DNA of 64,000 nucleotides from Chondrosia reniformis (lineage: Eukaryota; Porifera; Demospongiae; Chondrillida; Chondrillidae): assembly GCA_947172415.1 (NCBI GenBank), contig OX359194.1, forward strand, positions 5,394,001 to 5,458,000, read 5' to 3'. The notes below the pieces were generated by a model that ran no database searches, was not told the origin of the DNA, and saw only the letters and a program-made list of their open reading frames with translations. The translations under genes and the position numbers were made by a program. Each line of letters starts with the position of its first letter. The first letter of the stretch is position 1. Below are positions 7,705 to 60,500 of the stretch, in pieces.

Positions 7705-9458
7705 ATGGAGATTGGCTCAGTTTATTGGATATTTCTCAGTTGGATAATTATCTTATCTTCCAAGGGTAAGTTGAAATTCTTAATTATCTTTGAAAGTTTA
7801 GCCCCAATAGAATCTCTAGGTTAATATTTCTAAATTGAATAATGTAGACTATAATATATTACTTCAATTTATAACAGACACCCTTAAGACGCATGCATCC
7901 TAGCGTAGACCACAGCCTAATCCTATATAATATTATGTATGTATAATATATAGATATAATTACACTTTTATCTTGCCTACGCTCTCTCCTTCAGTTGCTT
8001 CACAAGCAGCTACAACTATTACAGTTGGATCAGGTTCTCCAGTCAACATAACTGCAACACCTACCATTAGTCAATCAGTAGAGTTACAGTGTAGTAGGCC
8101 AGGGACACCCAAACAGTGGTATAGTACAGGAAGTATAGTAGAACCCACAGGTGAAGTGTGGACAACTGGTGGACTTACTAGGAAATTAGGTTTTTCTACA
8201 TTTTCTACAAGTCATGCTCGAACATACACTTGTCGTGTGACTATGAATGAAATAATCACAACAACTTACACAGTAGTGCTTGGTAAGTTTGTACAATTAA
8301 TTGCAGAGCATAGCTGTCCTATTGTGTATATGTGCAGAGTTATGATTCAACTCACAGCCATAGTTACCACATATATTACGTGTTTAAACCATAAAGCAGG
8401 AACTTGATGTAGCAACTTTAATAGACAATACATAAGTCAGGTCCTTATGTATAATTGAAAACTGAAATTCTTTGCACATAAAGTATACCCATAATTGGTA
8501 TCTGTATAAGTGTATCTGCATTAATCCTAGCCCAACCTTTATATCTTAGCTACCCCACCAACTCCACCTAAAGTCCAAGGTGTCAACATTACAAGAGGTA
8601 TATCTAATGGTTCTCTATCTCTGAGAGTTTCATGGACTGCAGTACCTGGATCTGGAATAACCTACACTGTGTGGTATTCTACAAATAGTGGTACTACTGC
8701 AGAACCACCATCTGGGGCATTATATGTGTCAGGTATCACTGGTACATCAACTACACTGAGTGGACTTGCAGAAGGTACAACCTACTATATTTGGGTATCA
8801 GCTGTTTCGTCAGGTGTACCAGGAACTTACAGCATAAGAATGTCAGAGATGACATATTCAGGTAATGTAACTGATATGTAGGTCACTTAGATTGTGCAAC
8901 TAACACAATTAGCCTTTAGCTCTATAAGTTTCACTATACCAAATTATGAAAACTTTTAATTCTTACTGTTATATAGTGTACATCAACAATTTGTCGTTAC
9001 TTTCTAATTCATATTTTGTGTGTTTCCAAATAATCTTTGTCATTGACATTTAGTCTATATACTCCACTTAGTTTTGCTAAATTGATTCCAGAGTATGGAT
9101 GGTAGTAGTAAACGTATTTTTGCATGGTACTCTTTATAATTGCTAGAAAACAGCTACATATAGGGTTATTTTCACCTATATAGGATAGGGATTACTTCCT
9201 TTGGCTAACCTCTTGTTTCAATCCTGTTTCACATTCTATCAAAAGTAAAATAGTGCTATCCCAACCATCATTTAAAATACTCTCATTTTGTTATGTATGA
9301 ACTGTACTTTAACTATAAATTTCTGTAGGTACATATACATTACATCTGCCCCACTTATAGTAACTGTGATGCAAATAACATGCTCTAGTGTTAACATTGA
9401 TACATTAAGTCGCCGCTCAAATGTCTACTAAAAGTATTCGATCCCTCCACCCTTACAG

Positions 9459-10850
9459 AACCACCAGCTCCCTTAGAGGTAAACATTACTGGAAAGGCTT
9501 GTGATGTGAACATTTCATGGATGTCCCCAAGTGTCACTGGAGATCTCCCCATCACTGGATATGTTATTGAATACATTTATTTAATCACTAACACTTCCAT
9601 ATCATTAAATGTTACTACTTTGAATGTGCACATAGCACAGTTGATATCTATGACAAAATATATGTTTAGAGTAAAGGCTGTGAATGATTTAGGAGTCGGA
9701 CCGTTTGTGGATAAGAATTATACAACTGAGGAAAGGCGTGAGTAGCACATACTGTACGTATACGTATATATTGAATGCGTATTAACAAACAATTGAGTAT
9801 ATATGTCATACTCTCTCATGTATTACGCAAGTACACAACTCTACTATTCACAGCTACTAGACCACTCCAGATAGATCCACACTTTCCAAAGGGCATCACT
9901 ATCAACAAACCATCAGAACACTACAGATACAACTGCACTATTAGTACATTCAACAAGACTGAAATAACTACAATCTCCTTCACTAAACAAGATCACACAA
10001 AACAAGATTCTTTGAAGTCTGATACAACATATATGGTACATTGTATAGCATATGATGAGAATGGAAGTGAAGCATGCTTTGAGGCAAATGGAACAGTGAA
10101 AACTTATGAGTAACATGTAGTGATATCTCAACCTTAACATTACACATACTGTATATGTGCTGTTGTTTCTGTAGAACCAGGAAAGATTAAAGAGGTCAAT
10201 ATCAATAAAACTAAGGTAATGGATAATGATGTGAAACAATCTTTTACATGGATATCACCAAATTCCAGTGCAAAATACAGCTATATTATCAAATATGGTA
10301 ATGCTGCAAATGTTACTAGTCCAAATGGAACATCAGTAATGACAAAGAGTATAACTGTAACAAATATAAAACGTACATACACTAAAATGGTGGGCTTGCC
10401 TATTCCAAGTAGTAGAGTGACCTATAACTTTTGGATAGCAGCCATTTCTGATGCTGGAATTGGAGAATTTAGTGAGAGAGTTTGGATTACATATGATGGT
10501 AAGTCTGATGTAGAAATTGAATGATCATTTACTGTTAATAGTATGCTTGATTGCTCTTTCAGTTCCTGAGGCACCAGATTCTGTTTCATTCTCAAATATC
10601 ACATGCAACAGTATAACAGTTCACTGGAACATAACAGAACAGTTTATTGGTAGACTACCTCACACTGGATATACAGTAAAGTATTGAAGCAAAGAAAATG
10701 AATCAATCAGTTTAAACTTATCTAATCAGAATAGACTGATCATGATCAGTAATTTAGATGTAAACACAGTGTACACAATTGAAGTTAGTGCCAACAACAG
10801 TATTGGAGAGGGAAATGTTACTAAGCAAATTGTTAAAACTGAAGTGAGAG
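9459..10850 (+). CDS. Extra FN3-type exons X1-X4, found only in gene 2
   Basis: Four exons between F1 and F2 that no other copy has. X1 is 9459-9737 (starts EPPAPLEVNITG; has the FN3 core ISWMSPSVTGDLPITGY and FRVKAVNDLGVGPF). X2 is 9854 to about 10110 and is F5-like, lacking the strand-B Trp. X3 is 10175-10498 (FTWISPNSS ... YNFWIAAISDAGIGEF). X4 is 10563-10850 (PEAPDSVSFSNITCNSITVHW ending EVSANNSIGEGN). X1, X3 and X4 are phase 1-1. X2 would be as well, but its donor is shifted by one base (TATGAGTAAC), and X4 carries an in-frame TGA. They lie inside sequence that corresponds to the F1-F2 intron of other genes, so they were either inserted here or lost elsewhere. X3 resembles the F1/F2/F3 group, and X1 and X4 are more typical FN3 domains. 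Confidence 0.7.
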
Positions 10851-16907: not shown

Positions 16908-18105
16908 ATGTTGGATGTGGAGTGTGGAGCAAATTTGTCCTTCAAAGCACAATTAATGGTAATGTATACGTAGTACTTCTAGTGTACATATATAGTGTTG
17001 AATTTACTCTAGCTGTGGATTTGCTATATATATTGAGACAGTTAAGGTTTCCTTGATTGATTTCAATACTTCTTTTGAAATTTCAAACTGTAGATACTGA
17101 TGAATGTTTAAAAAGGGAAATTCCCGATTGTTGCCTTATTTAGAGTTCTTGTTTGACTAGAAAGAGATCTAGATACACTGTACAGTTTCACTGTATAAAA
17201 TAACTAAGTTTTCATTTTTTAGATAACATAGTAACAGTCAACTTTGTGGAGATAAGTGCTTCAGGATACGAAGGACAGACTGTAGTACTAACTGTTGAGA
17301 GAGAAGGGTGGATAGCCACGCCTCTTGTAGTGACTGTGAGAGTAGTAGAACTAACCATCTGTCTCTATGGAAGTGGTAAGCTGATATCACATCTGAAGCT
17401 GTAGCAGTACTTTGCATCAGGTTGAGGTCTTGTTAATTTTACATCTTAAAGTCACAGCTACATATATATATGTGTACGTGTACCTATTATCCTTAAAATA
17501 TAATGGATTTAATTATTTTTTTTAAATCTACATAACTCTCTCTTACTCTATGCTGCATAGTGGACTCCATTTGTGATAAAAATGTCAGCATCAAATATAT
17601 ACATAGTACATACAACTTTAAATACAGTCAGTAATTAATCTAATTAATTAACCCATGCATTTAAATGAATCTTCTGAATTTGATTAAATGGAAATACACT
17701 TCCTTATGTCTATATTAATAAAGTAAGTATTTATGGTGCATGGTTATTCCCTAAAAGTAAGTTTAGGGAATAACTACCAATAATTGTATTGTTGTAAATA
17801 TATAATACAAATAAGCCAGTAACCTCATACAATCATATTTGTTAACCATGAAACATGTAGTCACGGTATTTTAATATGACCCAACTCATGCAGCTAATAA
17901 AGGTGATTATGTTCTGAGGAATTCTACACTGACCTTCTCTGAAGTTTACAAGTCATTTGAGAGACAGCACATATCAGTGGAACTAGTGGCTGATGAAGAT
18001 GATGAAGAGAGAGATGAAGTGTTTCATATTCTCATTGACAATCCCTTTGGAATACAAAGCAAGAGGAGAGCAGTTACTTGTTTGATACATAATTATATAG
18101 GCTAG
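16908..18105 (+). pseudogene. Duplicated gene tail (F7 end, EGF stub, CxA, CxB)
   Basis: A second, incomplete copy of the 3' end follows gene 2: the last 51 bases of F7 (16908-16958), the first 17 bases of EGF (17094-17110, cut in the codon run DTDECL), a full CxA (17223-17375, with DIC changed to TIC), and a full CxB (17894-18105, stop TAG). Without an upstream start it should not be expressed alone. It could serve as an alternative 3' end for gene 2. The intron before CxB is 518 bases long and has an in-frame TAA just upstream of the conserved acceptor, which helps to fix that acceptor. Confidence 0.75.
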
Positions 18106-18551: not shown

Positions 18552-18609
18552 ATGGAAGTCGGCTCGGCTGCAGGTATTTGGATACTTCTCATTTTCTGTT
18601 CTTCTAAAG
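18552..18609 (+). CDS. Gene 3 exon 1: class I signal peptide
   Basis: ATG, then MEVGSAAG followed by the hydrophobic core IWILLIFC and a small-residue stretch CSSK, ending one base into the next codon at a GT donor. This is a short but typical secretion signal. The start is fixed by conservation of the same ATG and leader in genes 6a and 7. Confidence 0.8.
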
Positions 18610-21600
18610 GTACCGTACTTTATAACCATTCATGATTAGATTCATTAATTAAAATATAGATTACGTAGTCTATGATAAATCTATATATGATTAAAATAAG
18701 GGAAAAGAGACACTTATGTATGAAAAGAGCTTACTGTATACGTACCTAGATATTATTTAGTATCGTGCACGAAGGGTCTCGAGGCTCTTTAATCTTGCCT
18801 ATATATACGCTCTATCCTTCAGTTGCATCACAACCAGCTACAACTATTACAGTTGGATCAGGTTCTCCAGTCGACATAACTGCAACACCTACCATTAGTC
18901 AATCAGTAGAGTTACAGTGTAGCAGGACACAAGCATTCAAGAAGTGGTATACTACAGGAAGTGTAGTAAAATCCACTCCAGGTGAAGTGTGGACAATTAC
19001 TGGTCTACCTACTAGGATATTAGGTTTTTCTACATTTGCTACAAGTCATGCTGGAACATACTCTTGTCGTGTAAATAATGGGAATGATAATGAGAATGAA
19101 ATGAACACAACAACTTACACAGTAGTGCTTGGTAAGTTTGTACAACTAAATGCAGAACATAGCTGTCCTATTGTGTATATGTGCTGAGTTATGATTCAAC
19201 TCACAGCCATAGTTTCCAACATATAATTACGTGTAGTAGGAACTTTATGTACGTATATATATATATGTATATAACTTTAATAGACAATACATAAGTCAGG
19301 TCCTTATATATATAATTGAAAAGCTGAAATTCTCTGCACATAAAGTATACACATAGTATAATTGGTATTGCTTGAAGTGTATCTGCATTAATCCTAGCCC
19401 TCTAACCTTTGTATCTTAGCTACCCCAACTCCACCACCACAAGTCCAAGGTGTCGACATTACAAGAGGAATATCTGATGGATCTCTATCTTTGACAGTTT
19501 CATGGACTGCAGTATCTGGATCTGGAATAACCTACACTGTGTGGTATTCTACAAATAGTGGTACTACTGCAGAACCACCATCTGGAGCATTAAATGTGTC
19601 AGGTATCACTGGTACATCAGCTACACTGAGTGGACTTGCACAAGGTACAACCTACTATATTTGGGTATCAGCTGTTTCATCAGGTGTACCAGGAACTTAC
19701 AGCATGAGAATGTCAGAGACTACATATTCAGGTAATGTAACTATAATAGATCACTTATTGTTGGGATCAATGTTTTTCAAAATGATAGGGTTATGATAAT
19801 GTATATATATATACAATACATACATTTTGCGTTGGGACCTTTATATATATTCAATGTGTATACATATATATTAGATATTCAATGTTTCAAAATTAAAGCT
19901 AGTCACTTCATTCACTTATCATGACTGTGAAATGATGAGTCACAATTAATTGGTATCCAGCCATAATTAGTATACTATATGTTTCATATATCATACTACA
20001 TACTATGTATACATACGTAGCTACTACTTATTATATCATTTATAGAACTTATTCTTTATTAATGTTCATATTGCATAGAATCCTTACAAGTGAGAGGTGT
20101 TAGAATTAGTAAAGGGACATTAGATGGATCTCCATCTTTGACAGTTTCATGGATTGCGGTATCTGAATCTGGAGTAACTTACACTGTGTGGTATTCCACA
20201 AGTAGTGGTACTACAATAGAACCACCATCTGGAGCATCAGTACTGTCAGGAATTATTAGTGCATCAGCCACATTGACTGATCTTTCACAAGGAACCACAT
20301 ACTATATTTGGGTAGCTGCTGTAAACGGCAGCGATCAAGGACCTTACAGTTTGAGATCCTCAGCAATTACATTTCAAGGTACTAGTGTAAGTAGAATATT
20401 AATGGTCTTTGTTTAGTGTATACACTAAACGAATATCTATGAAAACCTCTTTTACGTATATTTGTACATGTATATATGCAACCTCAAAACTTATATATAC
20501 AAATGTTATTGACAACCTCTTCATTATGTAGCACCTCCTCAAGTACAAGGAGTTTCTGTGATAGCTACAGTTAGTAGAAGAAAGCCCTCCCTATTGGTTC
20601 GTTGGACGGCTCCGATAGGGCATGATATCTCTTATGTAGTACAATATTCTGCAACCAATCAGAACACTCCTCCAAATGATGCTCTTGAAATAATATCTTA
20701 TTCGGCTTCCATTTTACTATCAATTGGAATCCAAAGTGGAACAACATATTATGTTTGGGTTTGTGCTATATCTAATAAACTCCATGGAAAATACAGTAGA
20801 AGAGCAATGAATACAACCTTTCAAGGTACATACCTACGTAAACAAATGTACTTTACTGCAAAATTATTTCTCGTGTGATTGATGGACAAATGAACCAATT
20901 AATATAGAAGGAAACTTGACTTGTTAATTTTATATAGCTCATGATCAATGAACTGTAAGTCTTTGACCTGATGTTCACCATTTATTTCCTAAAATTCCCA
21001 ACAATACTACCATTACAGTATAACATATAAAGATATAACAGGCATCTTTATAACAGCTAGCCACTTGGTAGTGACTCAAGGGTAACCGATGATTCATGGT
21101 TGCACTGTACATATGTAGTTTGAATATAACGTGCATACATAAACACTTTGAAATGGCATCCACATGAATGTTATTTTATCCGAGGACAATTTAGGTTCAA
21201 GTATTACATGATTTTAATGCCACATCAGTTTCTTGTTTGAAGGTATATAGAACTTTCATTGACTGTATATATATACATGTCCCAACAGTTCCAGGTGCTC
21301 CCACTGGACTGGTTATAACTCCACCACCTGACAAATGTGACCAGCTGAACTTACACTGGACAGCACCCTCCAACACAGGAGGACTTCCTGTCAAGTACAG
21401 AGTGTACAGCAATGGTGTTCTTGTACATCGTATTCTCAGTTCACCAAGAGCAGCCATTTTTGGACTAGCAATCAACTCTGAGTACAGAGTGAGAGTAATA
21501 GCTTTCAATGATTTGGGAGATGGAAAAGAAGTGACAGGAGTTAGAAGAACCAGACAACATGGTATATAGTAGTCAACTGCATCAATTCTCTATCTAATCA

Positions 21601-24496
21601 TTCTCTTTTCTGTAGCTCCCACAATCTCCTTTCTCTCTTCACCACATTCAACAAGAATAACATTTACACTTTCATCATCACCGTTAATTGGTTCATTACG
21701 CTGTACAATCTCGCCCAACATTTCTGGTCTATCCACAAAGATGGTGTCCACCTCTGCTTCTACTAATTTAAAAGTACTAACTGTTGAAGGTTTGACTTCT
21801 GGAGTTAACTATACTGTCACCTGTATCTCTTCAAGGGAAGGTTTGGTATCCTGTGATTCTGTGACCAGCAACATTGGTACGTATGTACAAGTGTAATATA
21901 CTATATAGATATATAAAAGCTTCTTTATTTATTCATAATAGAAGTTGATTAATCAGGTTATTAGGGAGTAAAATGGGAGACATCAAGACACATTCAAAAC
22001 CTACTGTACCAACCTTTTAAATGGTCTATACCAATATAATTGGAACAATATCATACCAAATACAAAGGGTTTTGACTAGTCTCTACCACCAAATTTGACT
22101 GACTAGCATGGGTTTGTACTGTAATAATTATTCCATTGATCACAGTGTGTAGCTAACAGGCTAATATGGTAAAGTGTGTCTATTTGTCGGGAGTGCATAA
22201 TGAATAAAAAACGAATTATGCACTCCTGATTTGTTGATGTCCAAAAAGGTTAAGTTAGTGCTGGAGTTGGAATTGGAAATATTTAATATTCTTTATTATA
22301 GCTGATCCTACGTACTAACAATCCTCCAAATCTCAACTTTTATAATTTCTTTTTCTATAATTTCAATTATTATTTGCATAATTTTCTAATTTTTAAATAC
22401 TTTTAACTACTTATATCTTCATCTACAGTTACCTTATCAGTACCTCCAAAGGTCACTGGTGTGTTTGTAAGAGTTGTATATACTAAAGTACCTACTCTCA
22501 CTGTTAGCTGGACACCAATAACTGATTTTGATTATGACATTTCATACACTGTGTGGTATTCTACAAGCAGTGGTACCATAACAGAACCACCAATGTCAGG
22601 AATCACTGGTACTACAGCTACACTGAGTGGACTTACACAGGGTACAACCTACTATATTTGGGTAGCAGCAATTTCATCAGTTGGTGAAGGACCTTTCAGT
22701 ACAAGAGTGTCAAAGAGAACGTATAGAGGTATTAATTGAAAGGAGCATTCTATGTATTAATATATGTATAGTACCTGAGAATTTGGTCCATGCAGTACAT
22801 ATCATATAAACAGTTTAAGCCATTGACCCTTACAGCATGTAAACATCAGGATCTATCAATGGCTCAAGTTTTATCTTACGTATATATTTTATGATAGTCC
22901 ATCAATAGCTAAACACTTATAATTGTGAATATACTTTTGTGTTTCCTGATCACAGCTCCAGCACAGGTTGAAAAGGTGGATCTAGTGAGTCTCAGTTGTG
23001 TTCAACCAGCTCTTTGGGCATTCTGGTTGGCACCTTCAAGTGAACGTCCAATCCAAAACTATGAAATCGAGTACAGGTCATTAAATAGATCAACAGATTG
23101 GAATAGAGTATCGCCAAACCCAACTAGTGCATCAGTTACAATAGAGAACCTTCTATCTGGACATACCTACCAAATGAGAGTGAGAGCTGTGTCTGATGTT
23201 GGATGTGGAGTGTGGAGCAAGCCTGTCCTTCAATGCACAATTAATGGTAATGTAGTACTTCTAGTATATATAGGTTGGACTTCCTTTAGCTCTGGATTAG
23301 CTGTATATATTGAGATAGTTAAGGTTTCCTTGATTGATTTCAATACTTCTTTTTAATTTTCAAACTGTAGATACTGATGAATGTTTAGCTAACAATGGTG
23401 GATGTGATCATATATGTCTGAATACACCAGGATCATATACTTGCGCTTGTAATACTGGCTATACACTAAATGCAGATGGACACACATGTGGTAAGCAATC
23501 CTGTAAAGGGAAATTCCTGATTGTTACCTTATTTAGAGTTCTTGTTTGACTAGAAAGAGATCTAGATACACTGTACAGTTTCACTGTATATTTATAAATA
23601 ACTAAGTTTTTATTTTTTAGATAACATAGTAACAGTCAACTTTGTGGAGATAAGTGCTTCAGGATACGAAGGACAGACTGTAGTACTAACTGTTGAGAGA
23701 GAAGGGTGGATAGCCACACCTCTTGTAGTGACTGTGAGAGTAGTAGAACTAGACATCTGTCTCTATGGAAGTGGTAAGCTGACATCACATCTGAAGCTGT
23801 AGCAGTACTTTGCTTTAGGTTGAGGTCTTACATCTTAAAGTCACAGCTATATATATGTATGTGTACGTGTACCTATTATCCTTCATTTGAATTAAAATAT
23901 AATGGATTTAATTTTTTTTTAAATTTACATAAGTCTCTCTTACTCTATGCTACATAGTGGACTCAATTAGTGATAAAAATGTCAGCATCAAATATATACA
24001 TACATACAACTTTGAAATACAGTCAGTAATTAATCTAATTAATTAACCCATACATTTAAATGAATCTTCTGAATTTGATTAAATGGAAATACACTTCCTT
24101 ATGTCTATATTAATTTAGGAAGTAAGTATTTATGGTGCATGGTTATTCCCTAAAAGTAATTTTAGTGAATAATCACCACCAATAATTGTATTGTTGTAAA
24201 TAATACAAATAAGCCAGTAACCTCACATACAATCATATTTGTTAACCATGAAACATGTAGTCACGGTATTTTCATATGACCCAACTCATGCAGCTAATGA
24301 AGGTGATTATGTTTTGAGGAATTCTACACTGACCTTCTCTGAAGTTTACAAGTCATTTGAGAGACAGCACATATCAGTGGAACTAGTGGCCGATGAAGAT
24401 GATGGAGAGAGAGATGAAGTGTTTCATATTCTCATTGACACTCCCTTTGGAATACAAAGCAAGAGAAGAGCAGTCACTTGTTTGATACATATATAA
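18552..24496 (+). CDS. Gene 3: intact Ig-FN3x7-EGF-Calx-beta secreted protein (957 aa)
   Basis: This is the reference copy of the family. Exons: SP 18552-18609, Ig 18823-19131, F1 19420-19731, F2 20079-20378, F3 20532-20825, F4 21289-21561, F5 21616-21876, F6 22429-22728, F7 22956-23246, EGF 23371-23490, CxA 23621-23773, CxB 24294-24496. The total is 2874 bases, divisible by three, with one open frame and GT/AG at all borders. Residues: leader 1-19, Ig 20-122, FN3 123-799, EGF 800-839, Calx-beta 840-957. There is no transmembrane helix, so a secreted or matrix-bound protein is expected; EGF and Calx-beta suggest calcium-dependent stiffness or assembly. F5 has a 6-base and F6 a 15-base in-frame indel relative to other copies. 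The hairpin at 22188-22228 lies in the F5-F6 intron; other introns over 300 bases show nothing notable. The role is unknown. Confidence 0.87.
18823..19131 (+). CDS. Gene 3 exon 2: Ig domain with variable loops
   Basis: Reads [19 protein letters not shown], then VELQC (first cysteine, strand B), KKWY (core Trp), [19 protein letters not shown] (strands E-F, second cysteine) and TTYTVVLG. The C-W-YxC signature marks an Ig fold. Compared with genes 2, 5, 6a, 6 and 7 the framework is almost identical, but four loops differ in sequence and length: after the first Cys, after YTTG, after GEVWT and after the second Cys. This copy has the longest last loop but one ([11 protein letters not shown]). Confidence 0.85.
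19420..19731 (+). CDS. Gene 3 exon 3: FN3 domain F1
   Basis: A proline-rich start ([17 protein letters not shown]), then [19 protein letters not shown] and [18 protein letters not shown]. The strand-B Trp and the YxIxVxAV pattern define FN3. The central tract from YTVWYST to the SGL(A/T)QGTTYY stretch is almost shared with F2 and F6, which points to sequence exchange between these exons. Confidence 0.85.
20079..20378 (+). CDS. Gene 3 exon 4: FN3 domain F2
   Basis: Starts [17 protein letters not shown], then [20 protein letters not shown] and [18 protein letters not shown], ending AITFQG. A complete FN3 domain in one phase 1-1 exon. Gene 7 has a 12-base and gene 2 a 15-base in-frame deletion in the same exon. 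Confidence 0.85.
20532..20825 (+). CDS. Gene 3 exon 5: FN3 domain F3
   Basis: Starts [18 protein letters not shown], then [19 protein letters not shown] and [20 protein letters not shown]3 domain with a Cys in the strand-F region. The intron before it is only 153 bases, as in all copies. Confidence 0.85.
21289..21561 (+). CDS. Gene 3 exon 6: FN3 domain F4
   Basis: Starts [17 protein letters not shown], then [18 protein letters not shown] and [14 protein letters not shown]. This is the most classical FN3 of the set and the best conserved exon in the cluster; some copies differ by only a few bases. Its antisense strand is by chance open for 77 or more codons in most copies. Confidence 0.85.
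21616..21876 (+). CDS. Gene 3 exon 7: FN3-like domain F5
   Basis: Starts [19 protein letters not shown], has a Cys in place of the usual strand-B/C core region, then [20 protein letters not shown] and [10 protein letters not shown]. The L-x-x-G-x-x-Y-x-V pattern is FN3, but the strand-B Trp is missing and extra cysteines suggest a disulfide-stabilised variant. The intron before it is only 54 bases here. Confidence 0.75.
22188..22228. repeat. Small hairpin in the F5-F6 intron of gene 3
   Basis: Counterpart of the hairpin at 14324-14364: GGAGTGCATAAT and its complement around an A-rich loop. One base differs in the left arm. Confidence 0.7.
22429..22728 (+). CDS. Gene 3 exon 8: FN3 domain F6
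   Basis: Starts [20 protein letters not shown], then [21 protein letters not shown] and [18 protein letters not shown]. It lacks five residues (SGAST) present in other F6 copies, an in-frame 15-base deletion. Confidence 0.85.
22956..23246 (+). CDS. Gene 3 exon 9: FN3 domain F7
   Basis: Starts [15 protein letters not shown], then [19 protein letters not shown] and [17 protein letters not shown], ending VLQCTING. An FN3 fold with four cysteines that could form extra disulfides. Confidence 0.85.
23371..23490 (+). CDS. Gene 3 exon 10: calcium-binding EGF domain
   Basis: Starts [18 protein letters not shown], then [17 protein letters not shown]. The D-x-D-E-C start, the N of CLN and the GYTL aromatic are the calcium-binding EGF signature, and all six cysteines are present. 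Phase 1-1, 120 bases in every full copy. Confidence 0.92.
23621..24496 (+). CDS. Gene 3 exons 11-12: split Calx-beta domain and stop
   Basis: CxA (23621-23773) gives [20 protein letters not shown] and [14 protein letters not shown]. CxB (24294-24496) gives [17 protein letters not shown] and [15 protein letters not shown], then TAA. Joined, these match the Calx-beta pattern (EGD-Y, STLTF, E-x-DE-x-F). The CxB acceptor is placed at CATGCAG because the sequence just upstream is out of frame or has a stop in most copies, while everything after it is open in all. The domain ends the protein. Confidence 0.8.
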
Positions 24497-25331: not shown

Positions 25332-25837
25332 TACAATTTTCTTCCTACATGTAAGTATAATAGTAGATGTACAAGGTTAAACTATGTAAAGATACATTTA
25401 TACTAATATATCTTGTCAAAGTTTGATTACATAAATAAATACTGAAAACTTAGATTAAATCACTCCTTTCAGAGTCATAAAATTGAGGGAAGTAAACTTA
25501 AGCACAGTTTTCAGGCCAAGTAGAAGTAACATAAGCAAAAAGAGTACGTACGTATATACTTCATTTAAAGCTGCAATTATCTACTGTGTCTGTATATATA
25601 TAATCAGTGGACATACGCATAAGGAGATATGTAAACTGCTCTATACAATACTTTGTGCAGTAAAATTAACATTGCACAATTAAAACATACATAGGTAATA
25701 TGATTTAATTAAGGACTAGACAGGAATTATAGCTAAGACTAATTGTCTATAACAGGGCTGTGTACTAGTAGTTCACCTACTACTATTGAGCAATACTGTT
25801 ATGACCATTTGCTAATCTAATTTTCTTAATAACTTAC
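25332..25837. other. Unique spacer without recognised gene
   Basis: Cluster homology ends at 25331. The following 500 bases are single-copy within the window. The open frame at 25483-25683 has no recognisable features. Confidence 0.5.
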
Positions 25838-33252: not shown

Positions 33253-33323
<71 letters not shown>

Positions 33324-46080: not shown

Positions 46081-46990
46081 ATGGAAGTCGGCTCAGCTTC
46101 AGGTATTTGTATACTTCTCATTTGGATCCTATTCTGTTCTTCTAAAGGTATAAGCTTTTACCATTCAAATTAGATTCATTAATTAAAATAAAATAGGTTA
46201 CGTCTATAATCATAGATACAGGAACAATATTGTTCGTGTATCTATGATATAATCTATGATTAAAATAAGGAAGAAGTGACATTTAATTTGTATATATCGA
46301 AAAAGAGCTTACTGACAAACTGTACCTAGAATTATATTTAGTATCGTACGGAGGGTGCACAAAGGGTATATGGCTTCGAAGGCTCTTTTATCTTGCCTAC
46401 GCTCTCTCCCGCAGTTGTTTCACAACCAGCTACAACTATTACAGTTGGATCAGGTTCTCCAGTCGACATAACTGCAACACCTACCATTAGTCAATCAGTA
46501 GAGTTATGGTGCAGCAGGACAAAGGCACCCAAGCAGTGGTATACTACAGGATATATAGTAACACCCACTTCAGGTGAAGTGTGGACAGCTAAAGGACGTA
46601 GATTAGGTTTTTCTACATTTGCTACAAGTCATGCTGGAACATACTCTTGTCTTGTAAATAATTGGAATGAAATGATCACAACAACTTACACAGTAGTGCT
46701 TGGTAAGTTTTTGCAGGACATACCTGTCCTATTGTGTGTATATGTGCAGAGTTATGATTCAACTCACAGCCAAAGTTACCACATATTATGTGTTTAAAAC
46801 CATAAATTAGGCACTTGATGTAGCAACTTTATAAGACAATACATAAGTCAGGTGTATATGTATATATAATTGAAAAGCTGAAATTCTTTGCACATAAAGT
46901 ATACACATACTATAATTGGTATTGCTTGAAGTGTATCTAGCCCTCTAACCTTTGTATCTTAGCTACCCCACCAACTCCACCACCACAAGT
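46081..46990 (+). pseudogene. Stub 6a: intact leader and Ig, F1 cut short
   Basis: SP 46081-46147 (MEVGSASGICILLIWILFC, slightly longer than in gene 3) and Ig 46415-46702 are both intact and in phase. F1 starts at 46963 (ATPPTPPPQV) but is cut after about 28 bases and runs into sequence that matches the spacer upstream of class II genes (compare 6120-6260), reaching a TGA within 20 codons. As it stands it could encode a secreted single Ig domain. Its leader and Ig exon could also be spliced onto the exons of gene 6 downstream, skipping the gene 6 leader, because all junctions are phase 1. Confidence 0.7.
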
Positions 46991-47488: not shown

Positions 47489-50400
47489 ATGGAGATCGCC
47501 TCACTTTGTTGTATATTTATAATTTTGTCATCTTCTAAAGGTAAATCGTGTAATAATATATAACGGGAGTTCATTTCAATTTGCATACTACTCTGGATCG
47601 GAGCCCCATTTTAATAGACGCGGGTAACTCCAATTCATAGACAGTGTACACGCAGCCTCGTTATTGGTGTTCAGTTAAGTATATACTAGGCCTACATTGT
47701 AGGATATCTATGAGTTGAATTCTAATCTTTGAAAGTTATAATTAGCCCGATAAACTCTATATATACGGTAAGTCAAATTTCAGGTCAAAGAATGTTAAAT
47801 ATACGTATATAGGCTTAAGATAATTACTTTAATTTATAACAGACAACCCATTGTAGTCTATAGAGAGATTACTGCTCATTTGTGTAAGCCTACCCTCTGC
47901 TGTCGTATAAAGAATATTTGGATATATATTTGGTACTTATTGTTTTGATCTATTTTCAATGTAAAATCTATTCTTTACGTATAGACTAGTTCAATCGACC
48001 TTTGACCTTTTGACTGAAGGTTCCTTTGTATGCATACTTTTGTTCTCTCCTTCAGTTGCTTCACAACCAGCTACAAATATTACAGTTGGATCAGGTTCTC
48101 CAGTCGACATAACTGCAACACCCACCATTAATCAATCAGTAGTGCTATGGTGTAGCAGGTCACCAGCTTCCAAGCGGTGGTATACTGCAGGAATTAAAGT
48201 AACACCCACAGGTGAAGTGTGGACAGCTCCTGGACGTATATTAGGTTTTTCTACATTTGCTACAAGTCATGCTGGAACATACTCTTGTCGTGTAAAAAAT
48301 ATCGGTGAAATGACCACAACAACTTACACAGTAGTGCTTGGTAAGTCTGTAAAACTAAATGCAAAACATAGCTGTCCTATTGTGTATATGTGCAGAGTTA
48401 TGATTCAACTCACAACCATAGTTACCACTAATTACGTGTTTAAAACCATAAAGTAGGAACTTGATGTATATGTTTGATGTAGCACCTTTAGTAGACAATA
48501 AGTCAGTTTCTTACAATTGAAGAGCTAAAATCCTTTGAGTATATACATATAAAGTTACACCATAGTTTGGTTGAAGTGTACATATATGCATTAATCCTAG
48601 CCCTATATACCCTTTGCATCTTATGTAGCTACCCCAGTACCACCTCCGCCACAAGTCCAAGGTGTTGACATTACAAGAAGTACATCTAATGGATCTGTAT
48701 CATTGACAGTTTCATGGACTACAATACCTGGATCTGGAATAACCTACACTGTGTGGTATTCTACAAATGGTGGTACTACAACAGAACCACCTTCTGGAGC
48801 ATTAAATGTGTCAGGTATCACTGGTACATCAACTACACTGAGTGGACTTACACAAGGTACAACCTACTATATTTGGGTATCAGCTGTTTCATCAGGTGTA
48901 CCAGGAACTTACAGCATGAGAATGTCAGAGAATACATATTCAGGTAATGTAACTATAATAGGTCACATATTGCAAAATGATTGGGATCTTTATTATATTA
49001 TGTATTTTCTAGCGTCTATTTTACGTACACCAAAAAAATCATACAATATCACACCTACACCACATACAGTATATACTCCTTAATAAATGTTTCCTCTACT
49101 TTGATGTTGAGCCAAAACTTAAAATTCAAATGTTTTTGACTTTATTAAAATTTATATACTACTCTGTATACGTAGCTACTACTAAATGTATCCTGTATAT
49201 GTTCTATTTATTATTCATATTGTATAGAAGCCTTACAAGTTAGAGGTGTTACAGTTAGTAAAGGAACGTTAGATGGATCTCCATCTTTGACAGTTTCATG
49301 GACTGCAGCATCTGAATCTGGAGTAACTTACACTCTGTGGTATTCCACAAGTAGTGGTACTACAACAGAACCACCATCTGGAGCATCAGTACTGTCAGGA
49401 ATTATTAGTGCATCAGCCACATTGACTGATCTTTTACAAGGAACCACATACTACATTTGGGTAGCTGCTGTAACAGACAGGGATCAAGGACCTTACAGTT
49501 TGAGAACCTCAGCAATTACATTTCAAGGTACTAGTGTAAGTAGAATATTAATGGTCCTTGTTTAGTATATATTATACACTACATGAATATTTATGAAAAC
49601 CTCTTATATATTAATGGCAACCTCTTCATTATGTAGCACCTCCTCAAGTACAAGGAGTCTCTGTGATAGCTACAGTTAGTAGAAGAAAGCCCTCCCTATT
49701 GGTTCGTTGGACTGCTCCGATAGGGCAGAATATCTCTTATGTTGTGCAGTATTCTTCAACCAATCAGAACACTCCTCCAAATGATGCTCTTGAATTAATA
49801 TCTTATTCGGCTTCCATTTTACTGTCAATTGGAATTCAAAGTGGAACAACATATTATGTTTGGGTTTGTGCTATATCTAATAAACTCCATGGAAAATACA
49901 GTAGAAGAGCAATGAAAACAACCTTTCAAGGTACCGATGATAGAGTACTGGTGCCTTAACTAGAAGTCTTTCGCACTACTACAGTGTGGTTAATGATATA
50001 CATTTAGCAGGCATCTTTATAACAGCTTGTTATGATCCAACGGTAACTGCTGATTCATGGTTGCACTGTACATATGTAGTTTGATTATAACATAGGGACA
50101 TAAACATTTGCACTTACATCATACTTATAATGTATTCACATGAAAATGGCATCATGAAAAATCTAATATACCATTTTCCTACATGCTATATGCCTATTCT
50201 GTAAAAAGAGCCTATAGGGGAACTAAACCTAAAGAGAGCTTTAGATGAAGATACAGGAGTCTTTTCTTCCTTCTTTTCCCTTCTTTCATCTTCTTCTCCA
50301 CTAGGTCAGACAGCCGTTTCTGGGAATTCCACCCTTCATCAGTGATCCTGGGAGTCTTTGTCTTTTTCTTTATCTTGATCTTCTGTGAATCCTTGGCTCT

Positions 50401-53400
50401 CTATGCTAAATCTAGGGGCCTTATATACACTATTTTGGCGCCAAAAGTTAAATAAGGTGTTAACTAAGACACATGATGAAATTTAATTTTATGAAAGGAA
50501 TGTAGGTCCAATTAACTTTTATGAATTAATTATAAATCTATTAGTAAACTTGCTTGTACAGGTAAAACAGACTCAGCATAACTATAGACAAAAGTAGGAC
50601 ATATTACGTAAGTCTACCCTTAGGTCTTCTAGTAGTAACATTTCTTTGGAGGTGGGGTAACACAATATGGGGTAACACAAGACAGTCCTTAAGCATACTA
50701 GCTACTTTTTGCTTATACTTGATTCTAACTAGAGGCTGCCGGGATAGGAAGGTTTTAAAGGTTGATTTTAGCTTAAAGTATTTGTAACCCTGCTTAATAA
50801 GCCTATTGCATAACTGCAAACTTTTAGCCTGAAAACTGGAGAAGTCACTACATATTCTGGAATACCTAATTAGTTGTGAAATAAAGACACCATAGGCTGG
50901 GGTATTAGGAATATTACTATCTAAATGGGGGAAATTTACTATATCAAAGTTAAAGTCCTCTCGCTTATCATATACTTTAGTGATAAATTGATTGTTAGTA
51001 ATGGTTATATCTAAGTCTAAAAAGGGGGATTTTTTAGGGCTGGTATTTGTCTTTTTAAGAATAAGTTCTTTGGGGTAAATATCACTAATTGACAGTTCAA
51101 AATCCTTGTTGTTAATACATAAAAGGTCATCAATATACCTATAAGTATTGGAAAATTTAATAGCTAGGGTGATGTTATCCTTAAGTAGTCCTTTCATAAA
51201 CTCATACTCATAGGCAAACAGAAAAAGATTAGCAACTACAGGGGCACAGTCAGTACCCATAGGGATACCTACACATTGCTTAAATACAGAACCGTCTACA
51301 CATACATAAATGTTGTCAATAAGGTAATTAAAGAGCTCTACTAAATGAACAGCTGTGACTGCTTTATTGGAGACATTGTTAGACCAAAAGGCTTTATCCT
51401 GACAGACTTCTATATATTGGGACTTCCTACAGGTATAGGCACTATAAATAAGGTTAGTAATCTTATCTTTAAGTAGGTTATGGGGGATCGCTGTATATAA
51501 TGTAGAAAAATCAAAACTAGCTAGCTGGGTTTTTCTAGTGGGTATAGACCTAAGACTATCTAAGACTTCTAGTGAGTTTTCTACTATCCAAAAGGCATTA
51601 ACACCAGTATTCCTATATATACCTAGGCAGTATTCTCTAAAATGTTTGAGAATTAGTCTGAGTGCTGAATTTAGAAATCTAGAAAGGGGTTTGGTAGTAC
51701 ATTTGTGAGAAGCAGCTATGAATCTGTAGTTGTAAGGGTTCTTATGTAGCTTAGGCATCCAGTAAAAAGAGGGAAGGTTACACCAGTCTGGTTTAGGTTC
51801 TAAGTTCTCTAGTTTTAAGAAATCTATGTGTTTCCTAATTAACTGTTGTGGTTCTACTGTACATTTAGCATAAGTGGAGGTACTGCCTAGTTCTTCATTA
51901 ATAATTTGTCTATAGTAGGACTTACATATAAATATTATATTATTAGAGGCCTTATCGGCAGGGGCTATAACATACTTATCATGTAGGTCTGCTAAGAATT
52001 TCTTAATTTTAGGGCAAGTAAGGGTCTTCTTGGCTACTGAGGATTTGGTATACAATTTAGACAGCTTAGAGATCCTATCATTAATTTTCTTAAGTACAGT
52101 ATTTTCCCACTCACTAAATACAGAAATAGATACATTTTCTCTACGGGCCCAGGTAATCTTATATTTTCTAAGACCTTCCTTACACATTTTTAAAGCAGTT
52201 ACCCAATTAAAGTTATTAGGTTCTCTAAATTTTGGTCCTTTCTTAAGAAGTTTTCTAAGTTTTGGGTTACTAACAATACATAGGTCACCTGTTAAAACAT
52301 GGCCTAGGGGCTTGTAAATGAAGGGGGACTTGTGACACTCACATGGTTCTGGTTTTCTAAAGACATCTGACTTAGAGGCTTGTGAAAAGTTAAAGATTTG
52401 AGGTCCTATTGGTTGGGTATACTTATATACTACACATGGGGGCTCTTTGTTTTGTATAAAGGGTGGGACAGTTTCTAACACTAACTTTTGGTTTAAGATA
52501 CCTGAGAGGCCTATTTTTTCTACACCTTTATTATGAAACACGATTTTAAGAAACCCTTCTGGACTTGTCGTTTTCGTTGGGTGTTTGGGAAGGCTGGCTG
52601 AAGCGCGTGCTTTAATAACGTCTTTAATCATTAGCATAAGTCTAAGCGGAAAAGGTGTTTCTGGGGTATCGATGAGACATTGTACCGAGTTTAACAAACG
52701 ATGAAGGTGTCGAGCTTGTAATGCAAAAGTATCGCGTTTAAGTTTGGCTAGAAAGCCTACGTTCTTGTAAAGTGGTAGTCGTTCTTTGAGCCATTCAGGG
52801 TCGAAGGTAGCGTTATTACTACTGCCTGTCGATTTTAGATTGGAGCGCCGATGCCGTCTTTTATGAGATAAGCGATTAAAAAGGTTCCATACGATGATTT
52901 CTTTTTTAAGTTTCGAAATATTGCCAACGCCTTTAATGTTATCGTTAAGTCCATATGGGTAAATAGAGCAGAGTTCCTTGTACCAGAACGCTTCTCTCAG
53001 TAGTCTGAGGCTAGTAGAATTAGGTGTCTCAGGTATCTGTTCTATGGGCATAATCAAGGCATCATCAAAACTATGGTTATCAGAATTAAAGTGATTGTAA
53101 AGATACAGTGGCTTAAAACCTTTGGTACTAGTCCTATGGTTGTTCATTCTACTCCTAAGCATCTGAGAGGTTTCTCCTACATACTGTACATCACATTGTT
53201 TACAAGTAATAAGATACACAACATTCCTACTCTGGCATCCTAGGGGACCACAAGGGCTACGGACTTGATAGGTCCTGCCAGTAACTGAACTCTTAAAAGT
53301 AGGGCCAGTAACTAAAGAGGGACATGTTTTACACCGCTTATTGCTACACTTCTTAACTAGTGATCATGTATAAGTACGCATTTTTTTATCCAAGGAAAGA

Positions 53401-56400
53401 ATTTAGGCTAAAGTATTGCATGTTTTAATGCCACATCAGTTTCTACTTCTTTGAAAGTATATAGAACTTTCATTGACTATATATTCATGTCCCAACAGTT
53501 CCAGGTGCTCCCACTGGACTGGTTATAACTCCTCCACCTGACAAATGTGACCAGCTGAACTTACACTGGACAGCGCCCTCCAACACAGGAGGACTTCCTG
53601 TCAAGTACAGAGTGTACAGCAATGGTGTTCTTGTACATCGCATTCTTAGTTCAACAAGAGCAGCCATTCTTGGACTAGCAATCAACTCTGAGTACAGAGT
53701 GAGAGTAATAGCTTTCAATGATTTGGGAGATGGAAAAGAAGTGACAGGAGTTAGAAGGACCAGACCACATGGTATATAATATATGTTGTGGTCAACTGCA
53801 TCAATTCTCTATTTAATCATCCTCTTTTCTGTAGCTCCCACAATCTCCTTTCTCTCTTCACCACATTCAACAAGAATAACATTTACACTTTCATCACCAC
53901 CGTTAATTGATTCATCAAGCTGTACAATCTCGCCCAACATTTCCAGTCTACCCACACAGAAGGTGTCCACCTCTGATTCTACTGAAGTACTAACTGTTGA
54001 AGGTTTGACTTCTAGAGTTAACTATACTGTCACCTGCATCTCTTCAAGGGAAGGTTTGGTATCCTGTGATTCTGTGACCAGCAACATTGGTATGTACAAG
54101 TGTATTATACTATATAGATATAAAAGCTTCTTTATATATAAACATTTTTTTTATTAAATCATAGGTTAATTGGGCTTGGTTACTATGATCCTACGTACTA
54201 ACAATCCTCCAAATCTCAACTGCACCTTTTAAAATTTCTTTTTCTATATATAATTTTAATTATTATTTGCATGATTTTCTAATTTCTAATTACTTTCCAC
54301 TATATCTTTATATCTTTCAACTACTTATGATTCTGTGACCAGCAACATTGGTATATGTGCATTGTGTATTATATAAAGATTTCTTTATTAAATCATAATA
54401 CAAGCTGGTTAATTGGGCTTGGTTACTATGATCCTACATACTAACAATCCTCCAAATCTCAACTGTGCACCTTATACATATTTTTTAATATTACTTTCCA
54501 CTACATATATCTTTATCTGCAGTTACCTTATCAGTACCTCCAAAGGTCACTGGTGTGTTTGTAAGAGTTGTATTTACTAAAGTACCTACTCTCACTATTA
54601 GCTGGACACCAATAACTGATTTTGATTATGACATTTCATACACTGTGTGGTATTCTACAAATAGTGGTACTACAACAGAACTACCATCTGGAGCCTTAAA
54701 TGTGTCAGGTATCACTGGTACATCAACTACACTGAGTGGACTTGCACAAGCTACAACCTACTATATTTGGGTAGCAGCAATTTCATCAGTTGGTGAAGGA
54801 CCATTCAGTACAAGAGTGTCAAATAGAATGTATAAAGGTATTACTTGAAAGGAACATTCTATATATTGATATGTACATGTTATTACATATATTAGATTTT
54901 GATCCATACAGTACATATCATATAAATAGTTGATCCTTACAGTGGGAGCCATGATCTATCAATGGCTCCAGTTTTATCATGTAGAAAGTGTGGGGGCATG
55001 GGAAGCAAAATTTGGTGTGGACTTCACATCTTGTCACATCTTGCCCAATTTCTGTTCTAAGTATCTGGCTAAAGCTGCTAAATAATCTTAGATCCTATGT
55101 TAGGAAAGATAATAAACTGAAGTCTCGACCACTTCTCCGCTCCATTTACAATTATAATGTCATGCGAGACTAGCCCCGCAGAGGTGTATATATAGCACAG
55201 AGAAGCATCCAGTCCTTCTTCACCTTTGCAGTGAACAGTAACTGTACACGATTACACACATCACACTTGTGGGTACACATGCCATATACCATGCATACCA
55301 TGTATAGTATAATAATAAATAAGTGTGTCAGAATTTCAAGGGGCATGCCCCCAGGCTCCCCTAGCTGGGCCAGCCCCCTGACAAAAACATCTCTTGTTAT
55401 CACTTTACATGTTTTCATCTTGAGTAATGATATATACATGACCATATATATACATAATACGATAAAATAATTAAAGTAGAATAAAAAATCTTGTTAGTGT
55501 TAATTGAAGGTATGATGTCATTCCAGATGGGGTCAAGTGACATGCCTTGGTCCAAGATGCATGATGCATTTTTATCTTATTCAATTTTTTCAACTCCTGT
55601 CACCTTTCCTCTATTTAAACCAACTCTGTAATCCTATTCCTCATTACTGCTGATGAAGACCTACGGGTCGAAACGCTCAATCTAGCTCAATTTTGTTGGC
55701 GATAGCTCCAATAAACTTATCTTTCATAATGAACACAACTAAGATTACCCCCTATACATGACCATATACATACATATCATTGTGAATATATATACGTTTG
55801 TGTTTCCTGATCACAGCTCCAGCACAGGTTGAAAAGGTGGATCTAGTGAGTATCAGTTGTGTTCAACCAGCTCTTTGGGCATTCTGGTTGGCACCTTCAA
55901 GTGAACGTCCCATCCAAAACTATGAAATCGAGTACAGGTCATTAAGTAGATCAACAGAGTGGAATAGAGTATTGCCAAACCCAACTAGTACATCAGTTAC
56001 AATAGAGAACCTTCAATCTGGACAAACCTACCAAGTGAGAGTGAGAGCTGTGTCTGATGTTGGATGTGGAGTGTGGAGCAAGCCTGTCCTTCAAAGCACA
56101 ATTAATGGTAATGTAGTACTTCTAGTGTATATAGGTTGGACTTGCTCTAGCTGGGGATTAGCTGTATATATTGAGATAGTTAATTATAAAGCTTCCTTGA
56201 TTGATTTCAATACTTCTTTTATAATTTTCAAACTGTAGATACTGATGAATGCTTAGCTAACAATGGTGGATGTGATCATATATGTCTGAATACACCAGGA
56301 TCATATACTTGCGCTTGTAATACTGGCTATACACTAAATGAAGATGGACACACATGTGGTAAGCAATCCTATAAAGGGAAATTCCTGATTGTTGCCTTAT

Positions 56401-57576: not shown

Positions 57577-60500
57577 ATGGAAGTCGGCTCAGCTTCAGGT
57601 ATTTGGATACTTCTCATTTTCTGTTCTTCTAAAGGTAAGCTTTATTCATTCATAATAAAGTAGATTAGATTTATTTATTAAAATATGGGAAAAGAGACAC
57701 TTATGTTTGTCGAAAAGAGCTTACTGACAAACTGTACCTAGATATTATTTAGTATCGTGCACGGAGGGTATATGGCTTCGAAGGCTTGCCTACGCTCTCT
57801 CCTTCAGTTGCTTCACAACCAGCTACAACTATTACAGTTGGATCAGGTTCTCCAGTCGACATAACTGCAACACCTACCATTAGTCAATCAGTAGAGTTAT
57901 GGTGTAGCAGGTCACCAGCAGCCAAGCGGTGGTATACTACAGGAAGTAGAGTAGAAGCCACTTCAGGTGAAGTGTGGACAACTAGTGGACCTGCTTGGAT
58001 ATTAGTTTTTTCTACATTTGCTACAAGTCATGCTGGAACATACTCTTGTCTTGTAAAAAATAGGAATGACATGACCACAACAACTTTCACAACAATTTAC
58101 ACAGTAGTGCTTGGTAAGTTTGCAGAACATAGCTGTCTTATTGTGTATATATTATGATTATGCTCATTATATAGTTACAGCTGTATGTTCATAAGTATAC
58201 AAATGGGTTAATGCCTTATTGATAGATGATTATATAATAACAGAACTTCACTAACAAGGCTATACTAAATCAAATTATACTAACTGTTTTGACAACTTAT
58301 AATAGCATATATAATTGTAGCAGTGGACCTAATTATCATCAGTGACCTATAGCTATAGTAGGTGGTACTTTTGTACTGAAATGTATCATGAAATGTAGAG
58401 TTAGCAAAGTTATTGAGAGTCAGCAACAAGAATTCTTGAAATAAAACACTTCAACCCGTAGGTCTTCATCAGCAGTTGCTGTCACTCAATAACTCAATAA
58501 ATGATCACAACAAATATATATATCATTAAATGAAGCACACAATAGTAAACAAACACCTAATGTAGCTGTAATACTTGGTATATGTGTACTTGTAATCAAA
58601 GTAACAACTGTTGGAACCATCTTTTCCGTTTCCCTACACACTGCCTCCGGGTCCCAAAAGGAGGAGGACATAGGAGGAGTCTGGCTTCCTATGTTAATGT
58701 AGCTATTAGGCAGGAAAGTGACCCCCACCCATCACCACCATGGCCAATCGCCCATATAATGTGTCAGTCAAGACCCTGGCGACCCGAGTGGCAGCCAAAG
58801 CTGGAAGAGGGTGATTTTAAGGATGTGCTCTGGATTGCGAGCTCTGTAGAATCCTTTGCTCCTGATAATGCCCAAATATTGGCTGCCATCAGGAGCAAGC
58901 ACCCGCCTCCCCACCCAAACTCCAACATGCCACTGAAACCGGTAGACCATCCACCATGTTTGCATGTGTCTAGTGAGGGGTGTCCAGAGCCATCAAGATC
59001 TTCCCTAGTGGTTCAGCAGGGGGCCCAGATGGCCTTTGGCCGCAAAATCTCAAGGACATGATCTGTGGCTCTGATGTCTCTTATGCTCCCCGCCTCCTGA
59101 GAGCTCTCACTGCCTTCATCAATCTGGTTCTTGACGGAAAGACCACACCTGCTGCATGCCCTTTCTTCTTTGGGACATCTCTCATTGCTCTTCAAAAGAC
59201 AGATGGGGGAGGGGTGAGGCATATTGCAGTAGGATGTACACTCCAGCGCTTGGCTGCCAAATGTGCAGGGGCCCGGGTCATGGAGGTCATGGGGGACCTT
59301 CTGGCACCCTTCCAGCTTGGTTACGGGACCCTGCTTGGTGCTGAGGCGGCAGTTCATTCTGCTCGTACATACCTCCACAACCTGCAGCCCGGCCACTTAA
59401 TCCTGAAGCTTGACTTCAAGAATGCTTTTAATACCATTCGACATGACAAGATGCTCTTGACAGTGAAAGAGAGGGTTCCAGACAGCTATCCCCTTGTTCA
59501 CTCGGCATATAGTGTGCATTCCTCCTCCTTCTTTGGGGGCGACACTTTGAAGTCAGCTGAGGATATTCAACAGGGGGTCACCTCTTGTTCTGTCTCACAA
59601 TCCATGACATTGTTCAGGAACTGCAGTCAGTCTTCCGGGTGTTTTATCTAGATGACGGAACCTTGGGGAGAGTGTGGAGGAGGTACTTGAAGATCTGAAC
59701 CAGGTGGAGAGAGCAGCCTTGAACTTGGGGCTCAACCATGCAAAATCAGAGCTAATCTGTGTAGAATCTGCTACAAGAGAGGCCATGCTCTCTGCTGTCC
59801 CTGTCTCCGAGTGGTTGAGCCAGCTGATGCTATTCTTCTTGGATCTCCCATTGGAGGTGTCAGTGATGTTGATGGTGTGATTACAGCGAAGAGAGTGGCC
59901 CTACAAGTGATGGAAGGCAGGGTCCAATACCTACATCCCCATGCATGATGCCCTCTGTCTGCTCCGTCATGCCTTCTCTCTGCCCAAGATGCTATACACC
60001 TTACGAACATCTCCCTGCTTTCTTTCAGCAGAGTTGGAGAGTTTTGATTTACTGCAAAGATCTTTATTGGGATCCATAGCCAACATCTGCCTCTTGGACA
60101 GTGTGATGGCTTTGACTCAAGAATCCCTCTTGGTTAGATCAGGCGGCCTAGGGATTCGGAGTATAACCCAGCTTGCTCCTTGCCTTCTTGGCCTCACCTG
60201 TGGGTTCATCCACTCTCATTAGCCAACTCCTCCCCTCAAGCTTGAGAGACATCCCTGAACCTCTATGCAGTGAGGCAATGAGGTGCTGGAAAGAGGGGCA
60301 ACGGGGCCCTGCAACTCTCAGCCATTGGACTTCGTATGGATGGTGACACCATTAGGGTTGCTAAAGGTCTCTCTTTGTGTTGGAATCCCTCTTTGTCTGC
60401 CCCATGATTATCAACACTGTGGGGCCAGGGTCGACAGTCTGGGTACACACGGTCTCAGCTGTCGCAAGAGTCAGGGTAGCTTATCCTGTCATGCCAGTGT

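Follow-up and report, generated by a model that had tools for sequence, protein, structure and literature searches.

The 64,000-nucleotide window analyzed here (Chondrosia reniformis assembly GCA_947172415.1, contig OX359194.1, positions 5,394,001 to 5,458,000 of the forward strand; coordinates below count from its first letter) is eukaryotic DNA with exon-intron genes and carries a tandem array of related animal genes on the plus strand. The AT-rich sequence, its compact genes, and its mixture of FN3, EGF, Calx, and NIDO domains give the impression of a sponge. In a complete unit, a leader exon is followed by one immunoglobulin (Ig) exon, seven exons of the fibronectin type III (FN3) type designated FN_A to FN_G, an epidermal growth factor (EGF) exon, two Calx-beta-like exons, and a stop. 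An original prediction, made from the sequence letters, held that the Ig exon of these genes varies in sequence and length only in four loops on a frozen framework, as expected of a recognition domain under diversifying selection. The present analysis of this exon is based on its six full copies, those of units 2, 3, 5, 6, and 7 and of an additional cassette termed 6a, all from one assembled sequence.

A candidate leader exon, called from a hydrophobic stretch ahead of a donor site rather than by a signal-peptide predictor, lies upstream of each of the six full Ig exons, within 700 bases in five cases and at about 1.9 kb in the case of Ig5. The candidate signal-peptide exon and the Ig exon lie at 7705–7765 and 7995–8282 (open over 7991–8284) in unit 2, at 18552–18609 (phase 1) and 18823–19131 (phase 1-1; open over 18819–19133) in unit 3, and at 37978–38038 and 39910–40203 (open over 39906–40205) in unit 5. 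The corresponding exons are found at 46081–46147 and 46415–46702 (open over 46411–46704) in cassette 6a, at 47489–47540 and 48056–48340 (open over 48052–48342) in unit 6, whose FN3 body runs from 48629 onward, and at 57577–57634 and 57808–58113 (open over 57804–58115) in unit 7, whose FN_A starts near 61166, behind an insertion. The outer coordinates first proposed for the variable exons, 7995 and 58113, coincide with splice-site boundaries. The splice sites of units 3 and 6 were chosen by script, and the other Ig boundaries, including those of unit 2, were read from the sequence.

Unit 3 reads as an open 966-residue protein with no internal stops, with GT-AG sites and phase-1 junctions throughout. 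Its FN3-type block spans 19420–23246 and consists of FN_A (19420–19731), FN_B (20079–20378), FN_C (20532–20825), FN_D (21289–21561), FN_E (21616–21876), FN_F (22429–22728), and FN_G (22962–23246), that is, six fn3 domains and an FN3-like FN_E. FN_A, FN_D, FN_G, FN_B, FN_C, and FN_F (six of the seven) matched Pfam fn3 above the cut-off; FN_E had no Pfam fn3 match in the three copies tested and is FN3-like by size and place only. The EGF exon (23371–23490) was assigned from a hand-joined EGF and Calx chain that matched Pfam EGF_CA and EGF. The Calx-beta-like domain (23621–24496) is divided between exons 23621–23773 and 24261–24496, with the stop at the end, and its Pfam matches were weak (E-values of 0.063 and 0.028, under the curated cut-off). 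The stop follows the Calx-beta-like exon directly in this reading, although transcripts may have another 3′ end; only in units 3 and 4 is it clear which 3′ splice site precedes the final exon. Other units are damaged, with FN_C broken in units 2 and 5 and FN_G broken in unit 2. Neighboring units can be closely spaced; the leader of unit 7, for example, starts about 250 bases past the unit 6 stop.

Cys34, Trp43, Tyr81, and Cys83 are invariant in all six Ig copies and form the Cys, Trp, Tyr-x-Cys pattern of the Ig superfamily. Matches to Pfam Ig_2, Ig_3, I-set, ig, and V-set all fell under the curated cut-offs, the V-set match being weak (E-value 0.022), and a profile match to obscurin-like 1 at an E-value of 0.00035 was found among I-set domains. 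A first AlphaFold model reached a predicted local distance difference test (pLDDT) score of 41, and a second, built with Ig6a as the first sequence, reached a pLDDT of 64 and a predicted template modeling score of 0.58. In Foldseek, the best match to model 2 was Ig1 of sDscam (E-value 8.9e-5, TM score 0.54); there were 38 matches at E-values of 0.001 or lower, with Ig domains among the matches listed. I-set-type proteins dominate the top rows of the profile and Foldseek listings, the latter obtained with a model whose pLDDT is only 64.

The Ig exon varies more than the rest of the gene. Its mean pairwise amino-acid identity is 0.774, compared with 0.911–0.961 for FN_B to FN_G, EGF, CALX1, and CALX2; FN_A lies at 0.870 over five units and at 0.782 when its divergent first copy, at 757, is included. 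The proposal that the FN3 exons hardly differ therefore describes six of the seven well but overstates the case for FN_A. Among the 109 columns of the Ig alignment, 43 are variable, and only 1 of 500 permutations was as clustered as the observed variants; none of the ten other exon types was clustered at the 5% level (47 to 490 of 500 permutations as clustered, lowest in FN_F with 47). Most variants fall in columns 37–42, 45–54, 60–67, and 84–96, which account for 59.5 of 76.5 minimum nonsynonymous changes, and the original observation of four variable segments holds in the six open exons. Outside these stretches, the framework is near-identical in DNA as well, with 4.0 minimum synonymous changes over 53.9 sites. 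It is nevertheless not wholly frozen, since 17 of the 76.5 nonsynonymous changes lie there, including a Gln/Trp exchange just ahead of the first Cys. All length changes are whole codons, and all but one lie in segments 2–4 (columns 54, 63–65, and 86–91), as had been proposed for loops; the exception is a four-codon insertion of unit 7 (columns 100–103) inside the predicted G strand.

The codon analyses were restricted to intact exons, frameshifted or truncated ones being left out throughout. Three further Ig copies, at 6670, 24863, and 36926, did not enter the rate tests, and the latter two entered one alignment only. The FN_A of unit 1 and the second Calx copy of unit 2 (u2b) were left out of the M8 site-model fits, the minimum-change counts, and the clustering test, and u2b also of the identity comparison; the pairwise homoplasy index (PHI) test kept the former, and the dual-rate test was run without the latter and, for FN_A, with and without unit 1.

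Based on model 2, the variable positions concentrate on predicted loops at one Ig pole. Extra residue types per site number 1.63 in the BC, C′D, DE, and FG turns compared with 0.44 elsewhere, and none of 97 shifted loop masks gave as strong a contrast. The same measure is 0.33–0.50 for the AB and CC′ stretches and for the pair of EF residues counted, and the B and E strands are nearly invariant except for column 33, the residue preceding the first Cys. In the Ig topology, the BC, DE, and FG loops lie at one pole. The assignment of the variable segments to Ig loops accordingly holds in terms of enrichment, but the second segment covers the C′ strand together with the C′D turn rather than a pure loop. 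Model 1 had placed the variable sites in strands (strand pN 0.151 and pS 0.079, where pN and pS denote nonsynonymous and synonymous differences per site); this placement was superseded by model 2.

Pooled over pairs, the Ig exon shows a pN of 0.129 and a pS of 0.066, a ratio of 1.95 (one-sided codon bootstrap 0.006). Tree-free minimum changes amount to 76.5 nonsynonymous and 14.5 synonymous in the Ig exon; the corresponding figures for the FN3 exons taken together are 148.5 and 87.5 (Fisher p 1e-4), and the Ig counts also depart from the neutral site ratio (p 0.019). In simulated nulls with neutral hot spots, with and without recombination, the ratio of 1.95 was reached in 2–4 of 1000 runs, and a second simple ratio, observed at 1.88, was reached in 0–4 of 1000, over four settings in all. 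Collectively, these results support diversifying selection on the Ig exon as a whole at about p 0.005, with multi-nucleotide replacement as a loophole.

Neutral yardsticks were taken from introns and silent sites. The only pair with a clean intron is that of units 2 and 3, in which the loops differ at 18 of 66 positions and the intron at 22 of 260, a fourfold difference in odds (p 2e-4). Loop divergence averages 0.218 over all fifteen pairs, and the better aligned yardstick, the pS of FN_A (0.104, ten pairs), is lower. The intron alignments are gappy in general, and the one next to Ig7 does not lend itself to comparison (divergence K of 0.29–0.90).

The PHI test was positive for recombination within the Ig exon, where 25 sites are informative (p 0.001 at windows of 30 and 50 and 0.043 at 100), and among four FN3 exons only FN_G was positive (7 sites, p 0.003). 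Moreover, the nearest relative shifts from loop to loop: unit 6 is closest to unit 7 in BC, to 6a in DE, and to unit 5 in FG. With a silent framework and mosaic loops, gene conversion or recombination is therefore part of the explanation, and the sequence pattern suggests that short exchanges homogenize the strands and reassort the loops among copies. Silent divergence is low across the family (pS of 0.020–0.085, or 0.192 for FN_A with its divergent copy) beside introns of mean K 0.093–0.392; gene conversion and recent duplication are both possible sources of this low value.

Additional copies and insertions surround these units. Three Ig copies are incomplete: a broken copy at 6670–6853 with a frameshift and a lost 3′ half, a truncated copy at 36926–37105 whose broken 3′ end is common to the copy at 6670, and a fragment at 24863–24979 within a unit remnant (24766–25332) that also retains a signal-peptide end and an FN_A fragment (25255–25332). 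Unit 2 has three extra FN3-like exons at 9401–10524, for which the Pfam fn3 match is above the cut-off in one, below it in one, and absent in one, and a second pair of Calx-beta-like exons lies behind it at 17237–18093, where the aligned frame begins on a stop codon. In unit 4 (28515–35612), a leader, a NIDO domain (E-value 7e-35 for the hand-joined chain), and two EGF-like exons precede FN_B to FN_G, EGF, and Calx exons like those of the other units, as though the common stalk might carry an alternative head. In unit 6, the intron between FN_C and FN_D contains a 919-codon uninterrupted retroelement-like frame on the minus strand (50604–53363) with a GIY-YIG match just under the cut-off; we read it as Penelope-like, and no reverse-transcriptase model matched it. 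A reverse-transcriptase match just under the cut-off lies at 58977–59651, in the stretch 58977–60969, within the insertion that separates Ig7 from the FN_A of unit 7. Transposon-like frames, recognized by eye, lie between the unit 5 leader and Ig5 (38071–39215), and the one frame scanned there gave no reverse-transcriptase model match. At 25834–26097 on the minus strand, an open frame encodes a markedly hydrophobic segment that resembles a transmembrane helix and gave no Pfam match at an E-value of 0.01. In searches beyond the window, an Ig alignment yielded 118 pattern matches in viral contigs, none of which was confirmed as a relative, and one FN_A exon hit six bacterial loci in genome contigs (four Treponema metagenome-assembled genome records, one Seleniivibrio, and one acidobacterium), which were set aside.

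On balance, we lean toward the reading that the array encodes recognition proteins whose Ig loops are under diversifying selection and are reassorted by gene conversion within a tandem birth-and-death family. The product would be a secreted multidomain protein in which an I-set-like Ig head at the N-terminus sits on a stalk built from seven FN3-type exons, one EGF, and one Calx-beta-like domain. The head would contact a varied partner via one pole, formed by the BC, C′/C′D, DE, and FG loops, and selection would favor new loop sequences there. Short-tract gene conversion or recombination between neighbors would keep the strand framework constant and near-identical in DNA, and the same exchanges would shuffle loop variants from gene to gene. 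Since the variation lies mainly at predicted loops that vary in antibodies too, in otherwise near-identical proteins, the products are good candidates for recognition molecules, and an immune or allorecognition role is plausible; secretion, ligand binding, copy-specific partners, and the recognition of microbes or other individuals are what we infer from the pattern. A bolder extension, that an early-branching animal, perhaps a sponge, keeps a germline antibody-like repertoire of secreted I-set Ig domains with complementarity-determining region (CDR)-like loops under diversifying selection, conversion-reassorted and maybe with alternative cassettes, is a tentative idea to which we give roughly the weight of a minority view.

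Several results weigh against the recognition reading, and some of them suit relaxed constraint combined with homogenization, in which the loops drift neutrally, conversion and purifying selection fix the strands, and no recognition role is needed. Loop nucleotide divergence is close to that of the adjacent introns (0.248 versus 0.211 in the same six noisy pairs, the loops being higher in four of the six), so that no rate above the neutral one is needed for the loops. The variable stretches are also richer in synonymous change, with 10.5 changes over 24.9 sites versus 4 over 53.9 outside, although they were themselves picked for variability; this increase fits local mutation or old divergence and, like the PHI signal, agrees with relaxed constraint plus homogenization. 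When only the loops of model 1 were considered, the excess of pN (0.239) over pS (0.151) was not significant (one-sided bootstrap 0.107). Localization was weak in model 1, with 4 of 108 shifts as strong, and the confidence of model 2 is moderate (pLDDT 64). Furthermore, the loop mask was drawn manually on the DSSP string once the variable sites were known, and AlphaFold saw the same alignment; the loop calls are therefore partly dependent on the variation.

For M8 versus M7, twice the log-likelihood difference was 72 in the Ig exon, 15.8 in FN_E, and at most 3.4 in the other exon types (ten others in all), but neutral hot spots inflate this statistic to 18.9–70.4 in 20 simulated runs without recombination and to 21.0–94.9 in 20 runs with it. 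The observed M8-M8a value of 71.9 was reached in none of the 20 null runs without recombination and in 2 of the 20 with it; the M8 fits to simulated data had a single starting point and four beta classes rather than five. Because neutral hot-spot simulations reach similar values, the M8 statistic is not relied on. The dual-rate test scored 31.5 in the Ig exon, but FN_B (17.4) and FN_G (5.1) also scored, and this model was set aside for that reason. FN_G (e.g., 22962–23246) further shows a ratio of 1.87, derived from few changes (minimum of 18 nonsynonymous and 3 synonymous). Only six sequences from the single assembled sequence were available, and the nulls left multi-nucleotide mutations out; such changes, or templated replacements, would lift nonsynonymous above synonymous change even in the absence of selection. 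As a separate observation, FN_E (e.g., 53831–54091) contains a fast class of about two sites, and the residue ahead of one of its Cys is Ser, Asp, or Arg.

Against relaxed constraint stands the whole-exon ratio of 1.95, seldom attained in the neutral hot-spot runs, which had no multi-nucleotide mutations. In addition, the ratio of nonsynonymous to synonymous change is lower when the FN3 exons of these genes are pooled, and no FN3 exon was clustered at the 5% level. We therefore regard neutral drift of the loops as unlikely, while granting it appreciable weight. For the claim of diversifying selection, the nonsynonymous excess holds over the whole exon; on its confinement to the loops the results diverge, the variation being clustered and loop-centered but the loop-only bootstrap not significant.

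Functional specialization without immunity is rather improbable in our view. The paralogues would bind different matrix or cell-surface partners in development, and their loops would have changed once per duplication. The copies do differ by fixed loop sets, and as a domain order Ig-FN3-EGF-Calx is characteristic of adhesion and matrix proteins. However, a simple partition of roles would need neither so many loop variants nor their mosaic exchange between neighbors.

A Dscam- or protocadherin-like system, in which alternative leader-Ig cassettes are spliced to a common FN3 body for homophilic, isoform-specific binding, is very improbable. In its favor, two open leader-Ig cassettes (46081–46702 and 47489–48340) with phase-1 junctions precede one FN3 body in unit 6, an arrangement that leaves room for alternative, sDscam-like leader-Ig use at 6a/6, and the best fold match is itself an sDscam domain. 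Elsewhere in the window, each FN3 body has one open leader-Ig cassette, and the FN_A of 6a ends shortly past its acceptor although its leader and Ig exons are open; 6a may thus be a truncated gene that lost its body. Moreover, according to PMC10154414, sDscam molecules bind homophilically through the ABED face, chiefly its B and E strands, and the residue ahead of the first Cys touches its counterpart. Here, that residue is Gln or Trp, and the B and E strands are almost invariant apart from it, so the expected placing of specificity residues on that face is not seen and homophilic binding of the Dscam kind is less probable. Targeted hypermutation of the loops, in the germline or soma, is the least probable explanation; the concentration of synonymous change in the variable segments would fit it, but the excess of nonsynonymous over synonymous change persists when hot spots are modeled.

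To place the proposed recognition family among known systems, we compared its features with those of other variable or adhesive proteins. Like the V domains of antibodies and T-cell receptors in vertebrates, the Ig exon combines variation and length change in BC, the C′ region, DE, and FG with a fixed framework; unlike them, it appears closer in sequence to I-set than to V-set and is known here from one assembled sequence. The sponge aggregation factor is an extracellular allorecognition candidate with clustered genes that encode a Wreath domain and Calx-beta arrays. The clustered genes are a shared feature, as are probably the extracellular placement and the Calx-beta domains, which are weakly matched here; the domains recognized in this array, in contrast, are chiefly FN3, plus a single Ig. 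Hydractinia Alr, Botryllus fuhc/fester, FREP, and VCBP are invertebrate recognition families, several of which combine Ig domains with selection or high polymorphism. Their domain architectures are different, and polymorphism is established there, not here.

Chelicerate sDscam, as described in PMC4835542 and PMC10154414, has the same general Ig fold next to the leader and an FN3 stalk, and its tandem 5′ Ig exons have their own leaders (PMC4835542). Each of its genes has one constant body, and the protein comprises three Ig domains and three FN3 domains along with transmembrane and cytoplasmic parts (PMC4835542, PMC10154414). In contrast, whole genes are duplicated here, the reading ends after the Calx-beta-like domain, and the loops vary. 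Within sponges, the Geodia adhesion molecule has Ig domains, and CDR1-like regions and traces of mutational events are reported for it; the passages of PMC7916673 that treat it make no mention of comparable tandem arrays. The Geodia receptor kinase Ig (PDB 8qpx), rank 16 in the structure-database listing, shares an Ig domain. In the open-licence literature, our searches brought up no account of an Ig-FN3x7-EGF-Calx family whose variation centers on the loops. Ig-based variable recognition families are already known, and this combination appears to be new.

Variable recognition at the loop pole of an Ig domain is best known from jawed vertebrates. If the reading favored here is true, the array would be an independent invertebrate case with a frozen framework and shuffled loops, showing that gene rearrangement is not required for an antibody-style solution to arise, and the family would be a concrete candidate for invertebrate recognition of self and non-self or of microbes. 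The question is directly testable, the variable exon being only about 300 bases long.

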